Source: Halosimplex halophilum (GTDB lineage Archaea; Halobacteriota; Halobacteria; Halobacteriales; Haloarculaceae). Taken from it: DNA of 64,000 nt. Below the pieces are notes generated by a model that had not been told where the DNA came from, made no database searches, and saw only the letters and a list, made by a program, of their open reading frames with translations. The stretch spans positions 1,550,001-1,614,000 of the forward strand of contig NZ_ML214297.1 in assembly GCF_004698125.1 (NCBI RefSeq). Reading direction: 5' to 3'. This document shows, in pieces, positions 31,103 through 39,058 of this stretch. How positions within the stretch are numbered: the first letter of the stretch is position 1; each line of letters begins with the position of its first letter. Position numbers and translations under genes: made by a program.

Positions 31103-32089
31103 TCAGTCGGCCCGCCGCAGTCGCACGTCGAGGCAGACGTTCAACTCGTGGGGGGCGTACGACCGGACGGTGTGGCGCCGTTCGACGGCCACCTCGTACT
31201 CCGGTTCGGCGGCCGCGCGGATGGCGCGTTCGCCCGGCCCGTAGGGGTCGTCCTCGTGCTGGATGTCGTAGTAGTGGACCACGCAGTCGTCGCCGGCCAG
31301 TTCGACGGCGGTGTCGAGGAAGTCGTCGGCGCTGTGGGGCAGGTTCATCACGAGCCGGTCGGCCCAGTCCGTGTACTCGTCGGCCACCTCGCGCACGTCC
31401 CCACAGATCGCCGTCACGCGGTCCGCGACGCCGTTACGGCGGGCGTTCTCCCGCAGGTACTCGACCGCGTCCTCGTTGATGTCGACGCCGACGGCGGTCG
31501 CGCCGCGCTTCGCGAAGGGGACGACGAAGGGGCCGACCCCGGCGAACATATCGAAGGCCCGTTCCCCCTCTCGGACCTGCTCGGCGACGCGGTGGCGCTC
31601 GGTCGCCAGCCGCGGCGAGAAGTACACCGTCGCCAGGTCCAGGGCGAACTCGCAGCCGTACTCGCGGTGGACCGCCTCGGTGCTCTCGCCGGCCAGCACC
31701 TCCCAGTCGCGGACCCGCTCGGTCCCCTTGACCTTCGAGGCGCGATTCACGACCGTCTTCACCGGCAGCGCCGACTCGACGACGGCGTCGGCCAGCGCCC
31801 GCGCGCGCTCGGGGTCGTCCTCGTCGACGATGACCACGTCGCCGAGCCGCTCGTAGGAGGGGTCGAACTCCAGCAGATCCGCCGGCATCGTCTGTGTCTC
31901 CCGCGCGTCGACCTCCCGCGTGACGACCTCGAACTCGTCGGGGACCGCAGCGGGGTCGGTGACGGGCACGTAGAGGCACCCGTCGGCGACCTCGATCTCG
32001 TAGTCCTCGGCGACCAGGTCGGCGTCGGCCAGCCGGCGGCGCGTCGCCTCGCCGTCCTCGCGTGGCACCCGAACGCAGGAGACCTCCAT
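31103..32089 (-). CDS. trm5: tRNA (guanine-N1)-methyltransferase Trm5 family
   Basis: A 328-residue SAM-dependent methyltransferase. The N-terminal part has the D1-like segment YERLGDVVIVDEDDPE; the Rossmann core contains FDMFAGVGPFVVPFAKRGA (SAM-binding), VGVDINEDAVEYL and the family motif NLPHSADDFL. Trm5 methylates G37 next to the anticodon, and related archaeal paralogues take part in wyosine formation; one of these cannot be excluded. It is divergent from dph5. Confidence 0.88.
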   Translation of the reverse strand: MEVSCVRVPREDGEATRRRLADADLVAEDYEIEVADGCLYVPVTDPAAVPDEFEVVTREVDARETQTMPADLLEFDPSYERLGDVVIVDEDDPERARALADAVVESALPVKTVVNRASKVKGTERVRDWEVLAGESTEAVHREYGCEFALDLATVYFSPRLATERHRVAEQVREGERAFDMFAGVGPFVVPFAKRGATAVGVDINEDAVEYLRENARRNGVADRVTAICGDVREVADEYTDWADRLVMNLPHSADDFLDTAVELAGDDCVVHYYDIQHEDDPYGPGERAIRAAAEPEYEVAVERRHTVRSYAPHELNVCLDVRLRRAD

Positions 32090-32214
32090 ACCTCCGGTAG
32101 GTCGCCGTCGCGCGGTAAGCCTGACGCTTCGGCCGCCCTCGGCTCTGACACCGCGGCCGCCCGGACTCGCCGTCGCTTCGCGGGGCTTAATCCGTTCGGC
32201 GCCGGAGAGGGCGT

Positions 32215-32994
32215 ATGCTCACCTTCGTCGGGCTCGGCCTCTACGACGAGCGGTCGGTCACCGTCGCGGGCCGAGACGCCATCCGGTCGGCCGACCGCGT
32301 CGTCGCCGAGTTCTACACCAGCAAGCTCGCCGGCGCCGCGATCGAGGACCTCGAAGCCGCCCACGACACCGAGATCGAGGTCCGCGACCGCACGGGCGTC
32401 GAGCAGTCGCCCGGGGATATCCTCGACGACGCCGCCGACTCGGACGTCGTCTTCTGCACCGCCGGCGACACCATGATCTCGACGACCCACACGGACCTGC
32501 GGCTGCGCGCTCACGAGCGGGGCATCGAGACCCGCGTCGTCCACGGGACGACCGCCCAGGCCGCCGCCAGCTCGCTCACCGGCCTCCAGAACTACCGCTT
32601 CGGCAAGGCGACGACGCTCCCGTTCGAGCGCTCCCACGCCGGCGACGACCTCCCCGGGAGCGTCGTCGACACGGTCGAGGGGAACCGCGACCGCGGCCTC
32701 CACACGCTGGTCTTCCTCGACATCGACGCCGCCAGCGACGACTACATGCGCGCCGACCGGGCGGCCGCCCGCCTGGCCGACGCCTACGAGGACACGCTCG
32801 GCGTCGTCGTCGCCCGCGCGGGCAGCCCCGACCCCGCCGTCCGCGCCGACCGGCTCTCGACGCTCGCCGGGGAGTCGTTCGGCGACCCGCTCCACCTGCT
32901 GGTCGTCCCCGGGGAGCTCCACCTCATGGAACGGGACGCCCTCGCAGCGCTCGGTGGCGCGCCCGACACGCTTCTCGAAGAACTAGTCGTCTGA
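32215..32994 (+). CDS. dph5: Diphthine synthase
   Basis: A 259-residue SAM-dependent methyltransferase that trimethylates the modified histidine of elongation factor 2. MLTFVGLGLYDERSVTVAG, VVAEFYTSKLAG, VFCTAGDTMISTTHTDLRLRA and FLDIDAAS are signatures of archaeal Dph5, and length fits. The last 12 bp overlap the 3' end of the convergent archaeosortase gene. Confidence 0.95.
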   Translation: MLTFVGLGLYDERSVTVAGRDAIRSADRVVAEFYTSKLAGAAIEDLEAAHDTEIEVRDRTGVEQSPGDILDDAADSDVVFCTAGDTMISTTHTDLRLRAHERGIETRVVHGTTAQAAASSLTGLQNYRFGKATTLPFERSHAGDDLPGSVVDTVEGNRDRGLHTLVFLDIDAASDDYMRADRAAARLADAYEDTLGVVVARAGSPDPAVRADRLSTLAGESFGDPLHLLVVPGELHLMERDALAALGGAPDTLLEELVV

Positions 32995-34020
32995 TCGGGT
33001 GCCCGCGCCGGCGCCGACCTCCGGGTCGCCCTCGGCGACCGACGGGTCGAGGTCCAGCGCGGCCCGCAGGTCGTACTCCGAGCCGGTCACGACGAACAGC
33101 AGGTCCTCGACGACGGTCAGCACCTCCGGGAGCTCGCGGACGACGAGGTAGGTGATCCCGACCAGCGCGACCACCGACAGGCTCTGGGCGACGATGCGGT
33201 CGATGACGATGTAGGAGACCTGCCGCGGGTCCGACAGCCCGAAGACCGACATGACCAGTTCCGGGAACAGGTGGAACCGCTGTTCCCCGAACCCGACGGC
33301 GATCATGACGTTGCGCCCCAGGTTCAGCGCGTAGATGACCGGCAGCGACACCGCGAGCGCGCGGAGCTTCCGGGTCAGCGGCGCCTCGACGGCCGCGATC
33401 AGCCCGGCGAAGATCGCCATGCTCCCGATCCCCGTGCAGGCGATGACGATCGTGTAGAAGATCGGACTCTCCCCGTCGGCGAAGACGAACGTGTTCTCGT
33501 AGAGGTGGTGCTTCTCGCCGACGATGTAGCCGTCGTACGCGACGACCCGCTGGCCGTCGACGATGGTCTCGTACCCCGTGACGAGCGCCGGGTCCGAGCC
33601 GATCAGCGAGATCAGGACCGCCGTCTGGTCGGTGACCGTCTCGACCAGGAACTGCCGCAGTACGGGGATCGACTCGAACGGGAAGAAGACCACCCCCATC
33701 AGGAGGATGGCCCGCGAGAGGACAAAGAGCGAGTCGCGGCCGGACCACAGCAGGTAGCCGACGTAGAGGGAGGCTGGGACGGCGACGAGCGTCCCGAGCC
33801 CCTCGATGACGCTCCGCTGGACGACGGCGAAGTGGTAGATGAGCGTGAACCAGAAGACGCCGAACAGCGCCCAGGCCGCGACCCCGGCCAGCCGGGCGTG
33901 CTCGCGCCGGTCGGCCGCCTCCAGGACGACCGTCACGAGAAACGCCGCGAGGACGAGCCACGCGAGCGGGTCCGAGAAGCGCGTGGCCCAGTCCAGCCCC
34001 GAGAGAACGGCGTCGAGCAT
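32983..34020 (-). CDS. artA: Archaeosortase A
   Basis: A 345-residue polytopic transpeptidase that removes PGF-CTERM tails and lets surface proteins be lipid-anchored. The catalytic set is visible: Cys195 (IVIACTGIGS), Arg236 (ALNLGRNVMI) and Arg275 (IVIDRIVAQ). Spacings of 41 and 39 residues are the same as between Cys173, Arg214 and Arg253 of Haloferax volcanii ArtA as I recall them. About eight transmembrane segments precede a charged C-terminal tail. ATG 34020 was preferred to a TTG four codons upstream. It lies 207 bp downstream of the S-layer glycoprotein gene on the same strand, a likely substrate. Confidence 0.95.
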   Translation of the reverse strand: MLDAVLSGLDWATRFSDPLAWLVLAAFLVTVVLEAADRREHARLAGVAAWALFGVFWFTLIYHFAVVQRSVIEGLGTLVAVPASLYVGYLLWSGRDSLFVLSRAILLMGVVFFPFESIPVLRQFLVETVTDQTAVLISLIGSDPALVTGYETIVDGQRVVAYDGYIVGEKHHLYENTFVFADGESPIFYTIVIACTGIGSMAIFAGLIAAVEAPLTRKLRALAVSLPVIYALNLGRNVMIAVGFGEQRFHLFPELVMSVFGLSDPRQVSYIVIDRIVAQSLSVVALVGITYLVVRELPEVLTVVEDLLFVVTGSEYDLRAALDLDPSVAEGDPEVGAGAGTRSDD

Positions 34021-34227
34021 CGGTTGCTCCAACGTAACGGTATCGGGAGTATATGCTTTGTCGTTGGACGCCCGCCGCGCACACAGACGGTCGCGGACTC
34101 GCGGTTCGCCCGGAGACCGCCGAACGCGACGCTCGAACGACGAGCGGGACGGAGCTGTCGCTGACCGGGTAGCGTCCGAAAAAATGTCGAGCGGTTAGGG
34201 GTCGGGCGTCAGCCCGATGGTGCTACC

Positions 34228-37200
34228 TTATTCGCGACGGCGCGCCGCGAGGAGCGCAGCCGCGAGCAGGGCGATGAGCGAGACGGCGACGCCGAAGCCA
34301 GCACCGTCACCGGTGGTGGTCGGCGACGGCGTGTCGTCGCCACCGTCACCGCCGTCTTCCGGCGCCTCGGTCGGCGTGTCCGTCGGCGTGTCCGTCGGCG
34401 TGTCCGTCGGCGTGTCCGTCGGCGTGTCCGTCGGCGTGTCCGTCGGCGTGTCCGTCGGCGTGTCCGTCGGCGTGTCCGTCGGGGTAGCCGTCTCGGTGTC
34501 CAGCGAGACCTCGGCGCTGTCGGTCACTGCGCTACCGTCGGCAGTGTACGGCGCGTCGGCCTCGGGGAAGTCGTACAGGTTGTTGGAGTTGTCGTCGAGG
34601 TGCGGCATCGCGACCAGCGTGGTGGTCCCGTTGACCGGGCTGTCGAGGTCGACCCGCACGTTGGAGTGCTGGCCGGCCTCGAGGTAGCCGCTCACGCCGA
34701 TCACGTCGCCGCTGGCACTACCCTCGTGGATGGCGATGAAGCCACCGTCCGAGAGCGTGGCGGAGTCGACGACGACTTCCTGGTTGCCCTCAGCGACGGC
34801 CTGGTCACTGAAGGTGACCGAGGCGGTCGGCTGAGCCAGGATGACACCGCTGTAGGTGCCGTCACTGATCTGGTCGCCACCGCGGCGGACCGCGACAGTG
34901 AAGTTGATGTCCGAGCCGCGCTCGCTGAAGTCACCCGTCGCCGCGAACGTGCGGTCCTCGGTGACGTGGGTGTTCAGCGTGGTCAGGAACGGACTCGTGT
35001 CCGACTGACTGTTGATGCGGAGGCCGAGCTCCGTGCCCGGGGCGACGTTCGTGTCGCCGCGGATGGTCTGACCGGCCTGGTTGCGGATGACGACCTCGTC
35101 GTCCGCGTTGGTGTCGAGCGACGCCTCGGCGACCTCGTACGTCCAGTCGGAGCCGACAGTGCCGGCGCCCTCGCCGCCGATCTGCGGACCGACCGAGCTG
35201 TAGCTCTCGAAGGAGAACGAGGCGTTGTACTCGATACCGTCCTCGAGCTTGTCCTCGTCGACCTCCGCGAGGTCAACAGCGACGTAGTAGGTGTCGTTCT
35301 GGTAGTCCGGGAGGACGACCGTGTTGTCAACGTTCAGGTCGAACCGTTCGCGCGGCTGGTTCGGACCGGGGTCCAGCTCGGAGAAGCTGGCGTTGAACAG
35401 ACCGGTGTCGACCTCACTGAGGAAGGCGCTGGTCGCGTTCGCACCCGTCGTGGTGCGGTTCTGGAAGACGCCTTCCAGACCGGACGCGCTGATCTGGTGG
35501 ACGATCATCTCTTCGCTGGCCACCAGGTCGGACTGCGTGAGGTTCCCGTCGATCGGGTCCTCGTTGTTGTCGGTGTTCTCGTCGATGAACGTCAGGTCGA
35601 CCTGGTCCTTCTTGTCCGAGGGGACGACCCAGACGTTGCTGCTCTCGGTGGAACGGGCGTTGATCGACACTGCGCCGACCGCGTCGGCGTCGACCTCAGT
35701 GAAGTTGAAGTTGCCCTTGTTGATGACTTCGGACTGGTCCTCGTTGTTCGCGACGACCGCGAGGTCGTACGACGCGGGGTCGAGGATACCGTTACCCGCG
35801 AACTCGAGGCTGGAAGCGTTGGGCGCTTCCGTGTCGTTCTCGAAGACACGGACGGCCTCGACGAAGGAGCCGCTCTCGCCACCGAAGTCGGTGACGTTGT
35901 CCTCACCCTGCGCGGTGAAGATGTGCTCGCTCTCGCCGGTGCCGGCCATGTAGGTGTTCCACTCGAGGACGACCTCACCGTCGCCGTCCTCGTCGGCGAC
36001 CGTCACGTTCGTGACGTAGCCGGTGTCGGCCTTGTCACCGATGGCGACCGTGGCCTGGGCACCCTCCTGGCTGTCGCTCAGCTGGACGGGGATCTCCACG
36101 ACGTCACCGCGCTCCTCCTCGAAGACGCCGCCACCGAAGGAGGCGGAGTCAGCCGAGGGGAACTCGTCGACGGAGAACTCGCCGGCGGTGACCTCGGCGC
36201 CGGTCGCGACGTCGGTCACGGTGACCGTGTAGTCACCGGCGTCGAGACTGGTGCCGTAGTTGAACGTCTCCTCGAACTCGCCGCGGTTGTCGAAGGAGAC
36301 GCGCTCGTACTCGGTGTCCGGGCCGTCGACCTCGATGGCGACCGGCTCGCCACCGCGGATGGAACTACCCTCGACGGTGATCTCCGCGTCCTCGTTGTGC
36401 TCGAACAGCGTGCCGTCCTCGTCGAGCGAGGCCGACAGCTGCAGCGAGGTCACGTTGAAGAACTTGCTCGTCTCGGCAGCACCAGCGCCCTCGTCGTAGA
36501 TCAGGCGGTAGGTGGTGCCGGACTCGAGGTCCGCGCTGTCGAAGACGATGGACGTCCCGGCGCCGGTGCTCCCGTCGAGGAGGATCTCTCCGGTCTCGAC
36601 GTTACGGAGCAGGATCGGCGTGTCGGGCTGGTCGGCCTTGAAGCGCACGTTCTGACCCTGGTAGACGCGCTGGGCGCTACCGCGGTCGCTGTGCGCGCCG
36701 TCGGCCTGGTCGAGCTCGCCTGCGGCCGTCTCGACGGTGACGTTCCCGATGGAACGCTCGCCGACGACGTCGGAGCCGTTCCAGCTACCGATGGCGGTGC
36801 CGTTACCGACGTTGACCTTGACCTCGTCGGCCGGGTTGAGGTCGCCCCACAGGCCGTTACCTTCGAGGCGGACGACCTCGTCGGTCGCGCCCGAGCCGGC
36901 GTCGGCCGGGTGGATCACGTCGGAGTTGGCCAGCTGCTCGTCGACTTCGGGCCGAGTGGACTGGTTGTACTCGGTGAAGTCGTCGGTGCCGGCCTCACGG
37001 ACGTAGACCGTGAAGTTGCTGGCGTCGAGCGGGTTGCCAGCGTTCGGACCGTTTGCTTTGCGAACGCTACGGTTGAATTCGACTACGATGTCGCCGTTAC
37101 CGGTCCCCTCGTCCTCCGTGGCTGCGTCCACGCCGGGGTCGGTATTGGCGGCCGCAGCTGTTCCCGCGAACGCGATGGAGCCTCCGAACACGGAGACGAC

Positions 37201-37251
37201 CATCAGCATCGTCAGGAACAAGCTGCGAAGCTTGTCGTTGGTTCCTGTCAT
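34228..37251 (-). CDS. csg: S-layer (major cell surface) glycoprotein
   Basis: A 1007-residue secreted protein. The N-terminus (LRSLFLTMLMVVSVFGGSIA to TAAAA, about 34 residues) is the surface-glycoprotein signal peptide type. The ectodomain is acidic with many N-x-S/T sequons. A Thr/Pro stalk of nine PTDT units lies near residues 930-965, followed by Gly/Asp spacer and a PGF-CTERM-like tail, DGAGFGVAV, then a hydrophobic helix and RRR. The tail has AGF in place of PGF. Lower GC wobble than neighbours is usual for S-layer genes. A long leader with two AT-rich promoter boxes lies upstream. It precedes artA on the same strand. Confidence 0.93.
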   Translation of the reverse strand: MTGTNDKLRSLFLTMLMVVSVFGGSIAFAGTAAAANTDPGVDAATEDEGTGNGDIVVEFNRSVRKANGPNAGNPLDASNFTVYVREAGTDDFTEYNQSTRPEVDEQLANSDVIHPADAGSGATDEVVRLEGNGLWGDLNPADEVKVNVGNGTAIGSWNGSDVVGERSIGNVTVETAAGELDQADGAHSDRGSAQRVYQGQNVRFKADQPDTPILLRNVETGEILLDGSTGAGTSIVFDSADLESGTTYRLIYDEGAGAAETSKFFNVTSLQLSASLDEDGTLFEHNEDAEITVEGSSIRGGEPVAIEVDGPDTEYERVSFDNRGEFEETFNYGTSLDAGDYTVTVTDVATGAEVTAGEFSVDEFPSADSASFGGGVFEEERGDVVEIPVQLSDSQEGAQATVAIGDKADTGYVTNVTVADEDGDGEVVLEWNTYMAGTGESEHIFTAQGEDNVTDFGGESGSFVEAVRVFENDTEAPNASSLEFAGNGILDPASYDLAVVANNEDQSEVINKGNFNFTEVDADAVGAVSINARSTESSNVWVVPSDKKDQVDLTFIDENTDNNEDPIDGNLTQSDLVASEEMIVHQISASGLEGVFQNRTTTGANATSAFLSEVDTGLFNASFSELDPGPNQPRERFDLNVDNTVVLPDYQNDTYYVAVDLAEVDEDKLEDGIEYNASFSFESYSSVGPQIGGEGAGTVGSDWTYEVAEASLDTNADDEVVIRNQAGQTIRGDTNVAPGTELGLRINSQSDTSPFLTTLNTHVTEDRTFAATGDFSERGSDINFTVAVRRGGDQISDGTYSGVILAQPTASVTFSDQAVAEGNQEVVVDSATLSDGGFIAIHEGSASGDVIGVSGYLEAGQHSNVRVDLDSPVNGTTTLVAMPHLDDNSNNLYDFPEADAPYTADGSAVTDSAEVSLDTETATPTDTPTDTPTDTPTDTPTDTPTDTPTDTPTDTPTDTPTEAPEDGGDGGDDTPSPTTTGDGAGFGVAVSLIALLAAALLAARRRE
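34373..34480. repeat. Nine tandem 12-bp repeats in the S-layer gene
   Basis: GGCGTGTCCGTC repeats nine times without change and encodes the (PTDT)n O-glycosylation stalk on the minus strand. The exact nucleotide identity of the units indicates recent expansion or contraction by slippage. Confidence 0.95.
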
Positions 37252-37394
37252 AGTTTGTTGGATCTTCTGTCAGCGGCCACAGCAGCTTTCCGACCACGCG
37301 GACACGCGACCATCAGTCGGCCGCGCCGAACCGCCAGTGGTGTACTCAATACTGCAGCCATGGGTAGGGGTACGGTAGGAACCACCGGCGGATG

Positions 37395-37401
37395 TAATAA
37401 A
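37395..37401 (-). promoter_or_regulatory. TATA box of the S-layer gene
   Basis: TTTATTA on the minus strand predicts a start near 37370 and a leader of about 120 nt. A second candidate, TAATATA (minus) at 37533-37539, would add a longer transcript; two promoters are known for the Haloferax S-layer gene. Confidence 0.6.
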
Positions 37402-37618
37402 TGCTTTGTGGTCATAGCCGAGGGAGGAACGGCCGCCTCCCGCCATAGATCGGCCCGCAGAACCCGTTTGTGACTGTTTCACGTGCCCTCGGCACGTGTC
37501 AGACGCCTGTCCCACACGGAGCCGACGATGGGTATATTAAGTACCGAAATCCGGGAGTACGCCGTGCTTACCGCGCCGGTACGTGACGTGGTCGGCGCCG
37601 CTATCGGCCGACGGATCC

Positions 37619-37680
37619 CTACGACGTGACGATCTCGACCTCGTGGCCGTCCGGGTCCTCCGTGAATGCGTAGTTGTCGT
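37619..37680 (-). pseudogene. Second copy of the VOC gene 3' end, including stop codon
   Basis: About 56 of 62 positions match the last codons of the VOC gene located exactly 180 bp away. Read on the minus strand it encodes YAFTEDPDGHEVEIVTS and a TAG stop, against YAFTKDPDGHEVEIVTS in the gene. Several differences are synonymous, so it looks like the end of a divergent allele rather than a fresh slippage copy. Confidence 0.75.
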
Positions 37681-37798
37681 TCGCCCACCTTTTTCCCGCT
37701 CGGATGTCCTCGCTCGCGCGGCTCGCTCCGGGCACCGCTCGCGGCAAAGAGATGGGGCAAAAAGCGGCCGATCACTCCGTTCGCGGTCGTACTACGAT

Positions 37799-38551
37799 CT
37801 ACGACGTGACGATCTCGACCTCGTGACCGTCCGGGTCCTTCGTGAACGCGTAGCTGTTGTCGCAGCTCTCGGGGTCGCGGTAGTCCTCGGCCTCGCGGGT
37901 CATCAGCTGGTCCCACCCCTCCGAGAGGTCGTCGACGCGGACGGCGAGGTGGCCCCAGGCGTCGCCCAGTTCGTACGTGCGCCCGTCGTAGTTGTAGGTG
38001 AGTTCGACGGCCATCGCCTCCTCGGCGGCGTCCTCGGGCTTGACGAAGTAGTTGGCGAAGCTGTCGGCCTCCCAGCGGCCGGTGTGTTCGTACTCGAACT
38101 TCCGGGTCCACCACCCGAGGTGTTCGTCGGCGTCCTCGACGCGGATCATCGTGTGGTCGATGCTCCAGCGGGCGCCGAAGTCGCGCTCGACGATCTCGAT
38201 CTCGTGGCCGTCCGGGTCCTTCACGAAGGCGTAGCCGGGGTTGTCCTCCGGGCGGCGGTAGTCCTCGACGCCCTCGTCCATCAGCTCGTAGTAGGCGTCG
38301 TTCACGTCCTCGACGCGGACGGCGATGTGGCCCCAGCCGTCGCCCATCGTGTACGAGCGGCCGTCGTGGTTGTAGGTGAGTTCCAGCAGCGCGCCCTCCT
38401 CGTGGACGTCCTCGGGGCCGAGGAAGACGTTGGTGAACGTGTCGGCCTCCCAGCGGCCCTTCTCCTCGTAGTCGAGGTGTGTGGTGTACCAGTCGAGCGA
38501 CTCGTCGAGGTCTTCGACGCGCATCATCGTGTGGTCGAGCGTTCCGTCCAT
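37799..38551 (-). CDS. Two-domain VOC family protein (glyoxalase-like)
   Basis: A 250-residue protein with two vicinal-oxygen-chelate domains in tandem, about 1-125 and 130-250. Each starts with the HTM(M/I)RVED strand and ends with (K)DPDGHE(I/V)EIV, the metal-ligand strand; LDHTMMRVED, ALLELTYNHDGR, DGHEIEIVE in domain one, IDHTMIRVED, AVELTYNYDGR, DGHEVEIVTS in domain two. Resembles GloA lactoylglutathione lyases, but haloarchaea lack glutathione and the substrate is unknown. The gene end recurs 180 bp downstream. Confidence 0.85.
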   Translation of the reverse strand: MDGTLDHTMMRVEDLDESLDWYTTHLDYEEKGRWEADTFTNVFLGPEDVHEEGALLELTYNHDGRSYTMGDGWGHIAVRVEDVNDAYYELMDEGVEDYRRPEDNPGYAFVKDPDGHEIEIVERDFGARWSIDHTMIRVEDADEHLGWWTRKFEYEHTGRWEADSFANYFVKPEDAAEEAMAVELTYNYDGRTYELGDAWGHLAVRVDDLSEGWDQLMTREAEDYRDPESCDNSYAFTKDPDGHEVEIVTS

Positions 38552-38599
38552 GGGCGAAAACTGGGTAGCCAGTTCGAAAAGGATACCGGACCCGGAACG

Positions 38600-39058
38600 T
38601 CAGGGCCGACTCGTCCACGCCGCCAGCGCGAGGAAGGCGGCCCCGAGCGGGTAGGCGACCGTCCGCAGTCGCGGCGACGAGAACCCGACCGCGGCGTAGC
38701 ACACGTCGAACGCCGCCAGCGCGAACAGCCCCGCGGTGACGCGGCGGTCCTCCCGGTCGATCCGGGCGAGCGCGGCGCTGGCGACACCCGTCCCGTACAG
38801 GAGCGACGCCGTCGGCCAGGCCAGCAGGGCGGTCGGGACCTCGCGCGTGTACACGAAGACGTAGTGGTAGACCGACGTGACCGCACCCGTCCCGGGGGCG
38901 ACCAGCGCGAGCGAGTGGACGAGGCTGACGCCGCCCTCGTAGGGGATCACGAGCCACGGGACGAGCCCGGCGACGAGGACGGCGAGCCCGCGGCGGTACC
39001 GGACGAGCGCGCGCCGGTGCCGGGCGAACGGTGCGAGGACCCCCGTTCGTTCGGTCAT
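38600..39058 (-). CDS. TIGR04206 family membrane protein
   Basis: A 152-residue protein with about four transmembrane helices (for example LAVLVAGLVPWLVIP, VYHYVFVYTREVPTALLAWP). The pattern fits the haloarchaeal TIGR04206 family, function unknown. It overlaps the upstream GTPase gene by 4 bp (ATGA), so the pair is coupled. Start at 39058 is set by that overlap. Confidence 0.8.
   Translation of the reverse strand: MTERTGVLAPFARHRRALVRYRRGLAVLVAGLVPWLVIPYEGGVSLVHSLALVAPGTGAVTSVYHYVFVYTREVPTALLAWPTASLLYGTGVASAALARIDREDRRVTAGLFALAAFDVCYAAVGFSSPRLRTVAYPLGAAFLALAAWTSRP

Follow-up and report, generated by a model that had tools for sequence, protein, structure and literature searches.

A recurrent Ala-Gly-Phe variant of the PGF-CTERM-type tail on an S-layer-type protein encoded beside archaeosortase A in Halosimplex halophilum

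We analyze a locus of the haloarchaeon Halosimplex halophilum in which the gene for an S-layer-type surface glycoprotein lies upstream of artA, the gene for archaeosortase A (ArtA), and in which the C-terminal tail of the glycoprotein reads Ala-Gly-Phe (AGF) at the position of Pro-Gly-Phe (PGF). Our account is built on the identities of the genes, the anatomy of the tail, the recurrence of AGF in relatives, a single archaeosortase above cut-off in the genome, conserved linkage, and the elements in the gap between the genes. We consider it highly probable that ArtA cleaves and lipid-anchors the AGF-tailed protein, that the motif is accepted as [PA]GF, and that the two genes are transcribed separately. 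On this evidence, the locus is mostly an ordinary ArtA/S-layer pair, with an AGF tail that is no oddity but a variant recurring in nature.

Background

The best reference for this locus is the ArtA/S-layer glycoprotein system of Haloferax volcanii, which has the same enzyme family, the same Cys/Arg/Arg spacing, a tripartite tail, and an S-layer substrate (PMC9263693, PMC7157517). Both papers describe ArtA-dependent removal of the C-terminal helix and lipid anchoring there; the enzyme has the locus tag HVO_0915 and the catalytic residues C173, R214, and R253 (PMC9263693). According to PMC11980579, it is not yet clear exactly where ArtA processes its substrates. The H. volcanii S-layer tail has Pro as the first residue of the motif, whereas the H. 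halophilum tail has Ala. In H. halophilum the two genes are adjacent; our comparison with H. volcanii is confined to features other than gene arrangement.

A literature search that fell short of some J. Bacteriol. archaeosortase papers returned no description of AGF in the archaeosortase literature. No experimental test of AGF was found in the literature covered, which included passages of PMC7157517, PMC9263693, PMC11980579, PMC4500146, PMC12186497, and PMC8640222, and PMC8875312 does not mention AGF.

Results

Layout of the locus and identity of its genes

The window is the whole stretch of DNA analysed, 64,000 nucleotides of contig NZ_ML214297.1 (positions 1,550,001 to 1,614,000), from a genome of 4.47 Mb that is 99.87% complete with 3.71% contamination. 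The initial annotation had placed artA 207 bp downstream of an S-layer gene on the same strand, and the open reading frames bear this out:

34228 to 37251, minus strand: S-layer-type surface glycoprotein gene, 1007 aa (family models, sequence)
37144 to 37233, minus strand: haloarchaeal surface glycoprotein signal peptide region, aa 7-36 (TIGR04207)
34366 to 34485, minus strand: TPTD-type Thr-rich spacer of about 10 tetrapeptide repeats, aa 923-962 (read from sequence)
34231 to 34317, minus strand: PGF-CTERM-type tail, comprising motif, hydrophobic stretch, and RRRE (TIGR04126 over aa 979-1006)
34294 to 34302, minus strand: AGF tripeptide (GCT GGC TTC) at the PGF position (sequence)
32983 to 34020, minus strand: artA, encoding an archaeosortase A of 345 aa when read from the ATG at 34020 (TIGR04125)
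32215 to 32994, plus strand: dph5 (diphthine synthase), convergent neighbour (open reading frame and family model)

The convergent dph5 overlaps the end of artA by 12 bp (32983-32994). In one compared set, artA has a convergent dph5 alongside in 58 of 61 loci.

The S-layer-type protein is homologous to the ArtA-dependent S-layer glycoprotein model NF041335 (E 5.9e-68, 229.8 bits), yet it falls under the equivalog cut-off of 1100, and we therefore name it an S-layer-type surface glycoprotein. It exceeds the cut-offs for the BGTF surface domain (NF045517, 78.3 bits) and the TIGR04207 signal peptide (43.7 bits) and contains 20 N-X-S/T sequons; a search of the PDB found no sequence relative at E 0.01. 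Homology and the position beside artA support a role as the major envelope protein that would form the surface lattice.

ArtA scores 320.6 bits against TIGR04125 (curated cut-off 75). Its C195, R236, and R275 match C173/R214/R253 of H. volcanii by spacing (41 and 39 residues) and not by alignment; among 173 ArtA rows, Cys195 and Arg236 are invariant and Arg275 is present in 150. The ArtA profile has no PDB relatives up to E 1. The earlier pairing of archaeosortase A with a likely substrate is well backed by family models, and also by linkage retained across many relatives.

The AGF tail and other tails of the genome

The C-terminus of the S-layer-type protein ends ...SPTTTGDGAGFGVAVSLIALLAAALLAARRRE, and the full tail reads GDGAGFGVAVSLIALLAAALLAARRRE. 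As initially annotated, it contains DGAGFG, altered at the first motif residue: codon GCT at 34300-34302 puts Ala in the place of the Pro that gives the family its name. Taken literally, the tail has Ala-Gly-Phe and not Pro-Gly-Phe, while its hydrophobic stretch GVAVSLIALLAAALLAA followed by the basic RRRE at the C-terminus is that of a PGF-CTERM tail. Because the curated TIGR04126 (PGF_CTERM) model accepts it (35.9 bits, cut-off 24.5), we keep the label of a PGF-CTERM-type tail, AGF variant. In a genome scan with the same model the S-layer tail reaches 41 bits and ranks second among 23 matches, which, with its score above the cut-off, makes it a normal member of the family. Ala at the first motif residue is not a chance occurrence, since nothing else in the tail is disrupted and relatives carry this AGF tail too. 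The conservation of the tail could also serve a plain membrane anchor.

Comparison with the other PGF-CTERM tails of the genome, which the initial annotation had proposed as a check, finds AGF in other proteins as well. By eye, the 23 matches comprise 20 tails and 3 non-tails, and the 20 tails comprise 13 PGF, 4 AGF, 1 SGF, 1 PGV, and 1 PGL, counts that are biased to PGF because the search model was built on PGF tails. All genome-wide counts were read by eye, as automated counters picked shifted or false motifs. Weak TIGR04126 matches with E around 1 are treated as noise, because 11 of the 14 genomes used as controls also give matches at that limit, 2 of them over the cut-off. The three other AGF tails of the genome score 34.3 bits (over the cut-off) and 22.3 and 18.3 bits (under), and so perhaps not all are real substrates.

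Other genomes, likewise read by eye, vary in their mixture: 12 of 12 tails are PGF in G003 and 7 of 7 in G400, while G066 has 7 PGF and 1 AGF (8 tails), and G006 has 13 PGF, 4 AGF, and 1 SGF (18 tails, read from 18 of its 22 matches). Apparent orthologues, judged from the tails alone, differ between the source genome (G000) and G003: L003 (AGF) corresponds to L133 (PGF), L013 (AGF) to L151 (PGF), and L016 (SGF) to L139 (PGF).

Recurrence of AGF beside artA in relatives

In the host's family, artA is present in 139 of 146 genomes. We compared 173 artA loci, hand-picked from listed matches and not a random sample: 127 from the host's family, spread over 126 genomes because one of them has two artA loci, and 46 from outside it, drawn from 287 artA-bearing genomes among 391 searched. 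A tail-bearing gene has its end no more than 600 bp upstream of artA in 84 of the 127 family loci (67 PGF, 17 AGF, the latter being the state of H. halophilum) and in 15 of the 46 outside loci, all 15 PGF; these genes were counted by their tails, not each by S-layer homology, and those of genus group g4 have only about 570-610 codons. The artA-linked surface genes of family relatives share the order S-layer gene, artA, convergent dph5, along with a similar gap and tail anatomy. Two or three tandem tail-bearing surface genes lie upstream of artA at L043, L047, L058, L060, L062, L063, and L093.

With the distance extended to 1500 bp, there are 107 artA-linked tails (89 PGF, 18 AGF), a set that leaves out L087 and L246 (tail gene more than 1500 bp upstream) and the loci with no tail gene in reach. 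Although the tail pattern admitted any residue at position 1 (it fixed position 2 as G and restricted position 3 to F, L, or V), position 1 is P or A only in all 107. The ArtA tree implies at least 9 P/A switches (quick trees, 107 rows), their direction not being given by the tree; a careful ArtA tree of 58 rows has 8. Linked AGF and PGF tails occur together in genus groups g1 (3 AGF/5 PGF), g8 (3/4), g11 (2/5), g13 (8/1), and g15 (1/6), and g21 has one linked AGF tail, 1335 bp from artA. As AGF is found in 8 of the 9 linked tails of g13, the state is stable. Within Halosimplex, artA and the S-layer gene are adjacent in 8 of 8 searched genomes (in G007 contig ends interrupt the gene), and AGF and PGF species have nearly identical tails, even though the four long protein matches are 66-71% identical.

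Ala is one of several residues reachable from Pro by a single-base change, and it alone occurs, which suggests that selection permits Ala at position 1. We infer from this acceptance of Pro or Ala that ArtA would process the AGF tail. Alternatively, Ala could block or slow ArtA, so that the S-layer protein stays held by an uncleaved transmembrane helix. The motif does depart from PGF, and an intact motif is needed in H. volcanii, where a J. Bacteriol. study reportedly found that permuting it blocks cleavage and lipid attachment. Such a result may mean that Gly-Phe matters more than Pro. However, a dead signal left to drift should yield other residues too, whereas the linked tails have switched between P and A repeatedly, hold only those two residues, and are nearly uniformly AGF in g13. 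We therefore regard a block by Ala as very unlikely and prefer an ArtA that tolerates Ala.

The Ala codon of the motif is GCT in 8 of 10 linked AGF tails (first set) versus 220 of 1015 Ala codons of AGF genes; as the rows are related by descent and a single step leads from CCT to GCT, we draw no conclusion from this bias, though neither point disposes of it.

Candidate processing enzymes in the genome

A signature search with TIGR04178 across the whole genome recovered ArtA and no second archaeosortase/exosortase-like protein over the cut-off. The other match (16.3 bits) was rejected as a second archaeosortase for AGF tails, as it lies in an apparent TauE/SafE-like transporter, an assignment read from the sequence. 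The single archaeosortase would need to serve both PGF and AGF, if AGF tails are archaeosortase-processed.

That a separate, unrelated peptidase handles the AGF tails has precedents of a kind, as rhombosortase and myxosortase are described as unrelated proteases that use tripartite tails (PMC11980579). Yet in 17 of the 84 family loci with linkage, the gene immediately upstream of artA is AGF-tailed, and the genome search, limited to the archaeosortase/exosortase family, offers no such second enzyme; we judge this explanation extremely improbable and keep ArtA as the likely processing enzyme. The genome also encodes a phosphatidylserine-decarboxylase family protein, the family to which HvPssD is said to belong (PMC9263693).

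Some relatives carry tandem artA pairs: L055, L056, L203, and L204 (g6); L086 (g21); L057 (g7); L064 and L065 (g9); and, in g15, L078, L079, L221, L222, L224, L225, L226, L229, and L231. Cys and the first Arg are retained in all pairs. The third catalytic Arg is missing from the second (downstream) copy in 9 of 9 g15 pairs (G in 8, S in 1), is replaced by Lys in the first copy in g6 (4 of 4 pairs) and g21 (1 of 1), and is retained in g7 and g9. These pairs suggest specialised second archaeosortases.

An exploratory association with Val87 of ArtA

In a first set of loci, Val at ArtA position 87 (counted from Met) accompanies 11 of 11 AGF rows versus 14 of 47 PGF rows, a link that was not significant among independent pairs. 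In a second set, V is found in 6 of 7 AGF rows, and a single genus group supplies six of these seven. The row lacking V, G122, carries a tandem artA pair; its residue came from copy 2, and copy 1 has V. Reading the first copy throughout gives Val87 in 17 of 18 AGF versus 22 of 89 PGF rows, and the remaining exception, G143, carries T in its first copy but V in its second. A rough random-clade null equals the association in 9 of 400 draws, and independent pairs across the 107 rows run 3.5 in the same direction versus 0.2 in the opposite one, of 9, which is not significant.

Because the rule for choosing the artA copy changed after the result had been seen, Val87 stays an exploratory lead: its association with AGF is striking by count and weak once descent is allowed for. 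Position 87 sits, by eye, in a hydrophobic stretch. A bolder reading, in which substrate and enzyme co-evolve and a permissive Val87 in one or more ArtA copies is a precondition for the origin of an AGF tail, strikes us as improbable. If it were true, these neighbouring genes would record natural shifts in archaeosortase specificity.

The intergenic gap and the transcription of the two genes

Alignment of 10 gaps (8 of the genus and 2 of g17) brings out the following elements, listed with the promoter-like element of the S-layer gene:

34202 to 34217, minus strand: hairpin TCGGGCTGACGCCCGA beyond the stop codon of the S-layer gene, unchanged across all 10 aligned loci
34179 to 34184, minus strand: terminator-like T-run (T6) following the hairpin; 9 of the 10 aligned loci have T6, and in L030 the run is interrupted
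34050 to 34065, minus strand: BRE/TATA-like artA promoter element AACGACAAAGCATATA, the same or close in the aligned gaps
37398 to 37409, minus strand: promoter-like element of the S-layer gene, ACAAAGCATTTA, 146 nt ahead of its start codon

The BRE/TATA-like box ends 29 nt before the artA ATG. Together, the conserved hairpin, T-run, and promoter-like box suggest separate transcription units, and the S-layer gene and artA are most likely two units with similar promoters. The initial annotation had suggested that linkage may permit joint expression, and co-transcription, which concerns expression and not anchoring, draws on the same-strand arrangement, the 207-bp spacing, and adjacency in many genera. 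In addition, a promoter/terminator scan of 33900-34400 found no site, and the RNA fold of 34170-34230 forms the hairpin although the whole stretch is no stabler than shuffles (z -0.71). However, the scan models bacterial sites only, and the conserved elements of the gap, including artA's own promoter-like box, speak against a shared transcript, which we consider unlikely; two separate units remain our reading.

The pattern ACAAARCATWTA, a widened form (the first version missed the artA site), occurs 4 times in the 4.47-Mb genome versus 1 for a reversed control. Its sites are the S-layer promoter, the artA promoter, and two positions before lipoprotein-like genes, and by coordinates it is found at the S-layer and artA positions in 8 of 8 genus genomes (the G007 S-layer copy is on another contig). 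The latter two sites, L122 (G000:C1:583689) and L123 (G000:C1:1915176), place the pattern 37 nt ahead of the start of each gene, and these two genes are related. Outside the genus, ACAAAGCATTTA is common before S-layer-type genes while the artA box is often looser (e.g., ACAAGACATATG, ACAAGGGATTTA), so the element may be a strong core promoter and not the mark of a dedicated regulon.

The 5' leader of the S-layer gene (37252-37409, minus strand) is long, with 146 nt separating the promoter element and the start. Around GTACCCCTACCCATGGCTGCAGTATTGAGTAC it contains a conserved block that nine of the 10 aligned rows share (from the genus, g17, and g14), the tenth, L030, having matched another gene; this block is a possible candidate for a translation or stability element. 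Rfam gave no match in 32000-38600 up to E 0.1.

Discussion

We propose that the S-layer-type protein is exported, that ArtA would recognise the motif-helix-Arg tail in the membrane and cleave it, and that the protein would be left lipid-attached after removal of the helix, as in H. volcanii. The AGF tail would be processed in this way like a PGF tail, with motif position 1 taking Pro or Ala. The suggestion that the altered motif reports on sortase specificity holds in its softer form, in that AGF recurs and position 1 seems tolerant of Ala.

The gap anatomy cautions against treating the conserved S-layer/artA linkage as an operon. The experimental motif work cited here concerns H. volcanii, and a natural P/A swap that has occurred repeatedly beside the enzyme gene, together with PGF sister species, provides ready pairs for testing what ArtA needs of its motif. 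The locus is of modest interest as a natural experiment in archaeosortase specificity.
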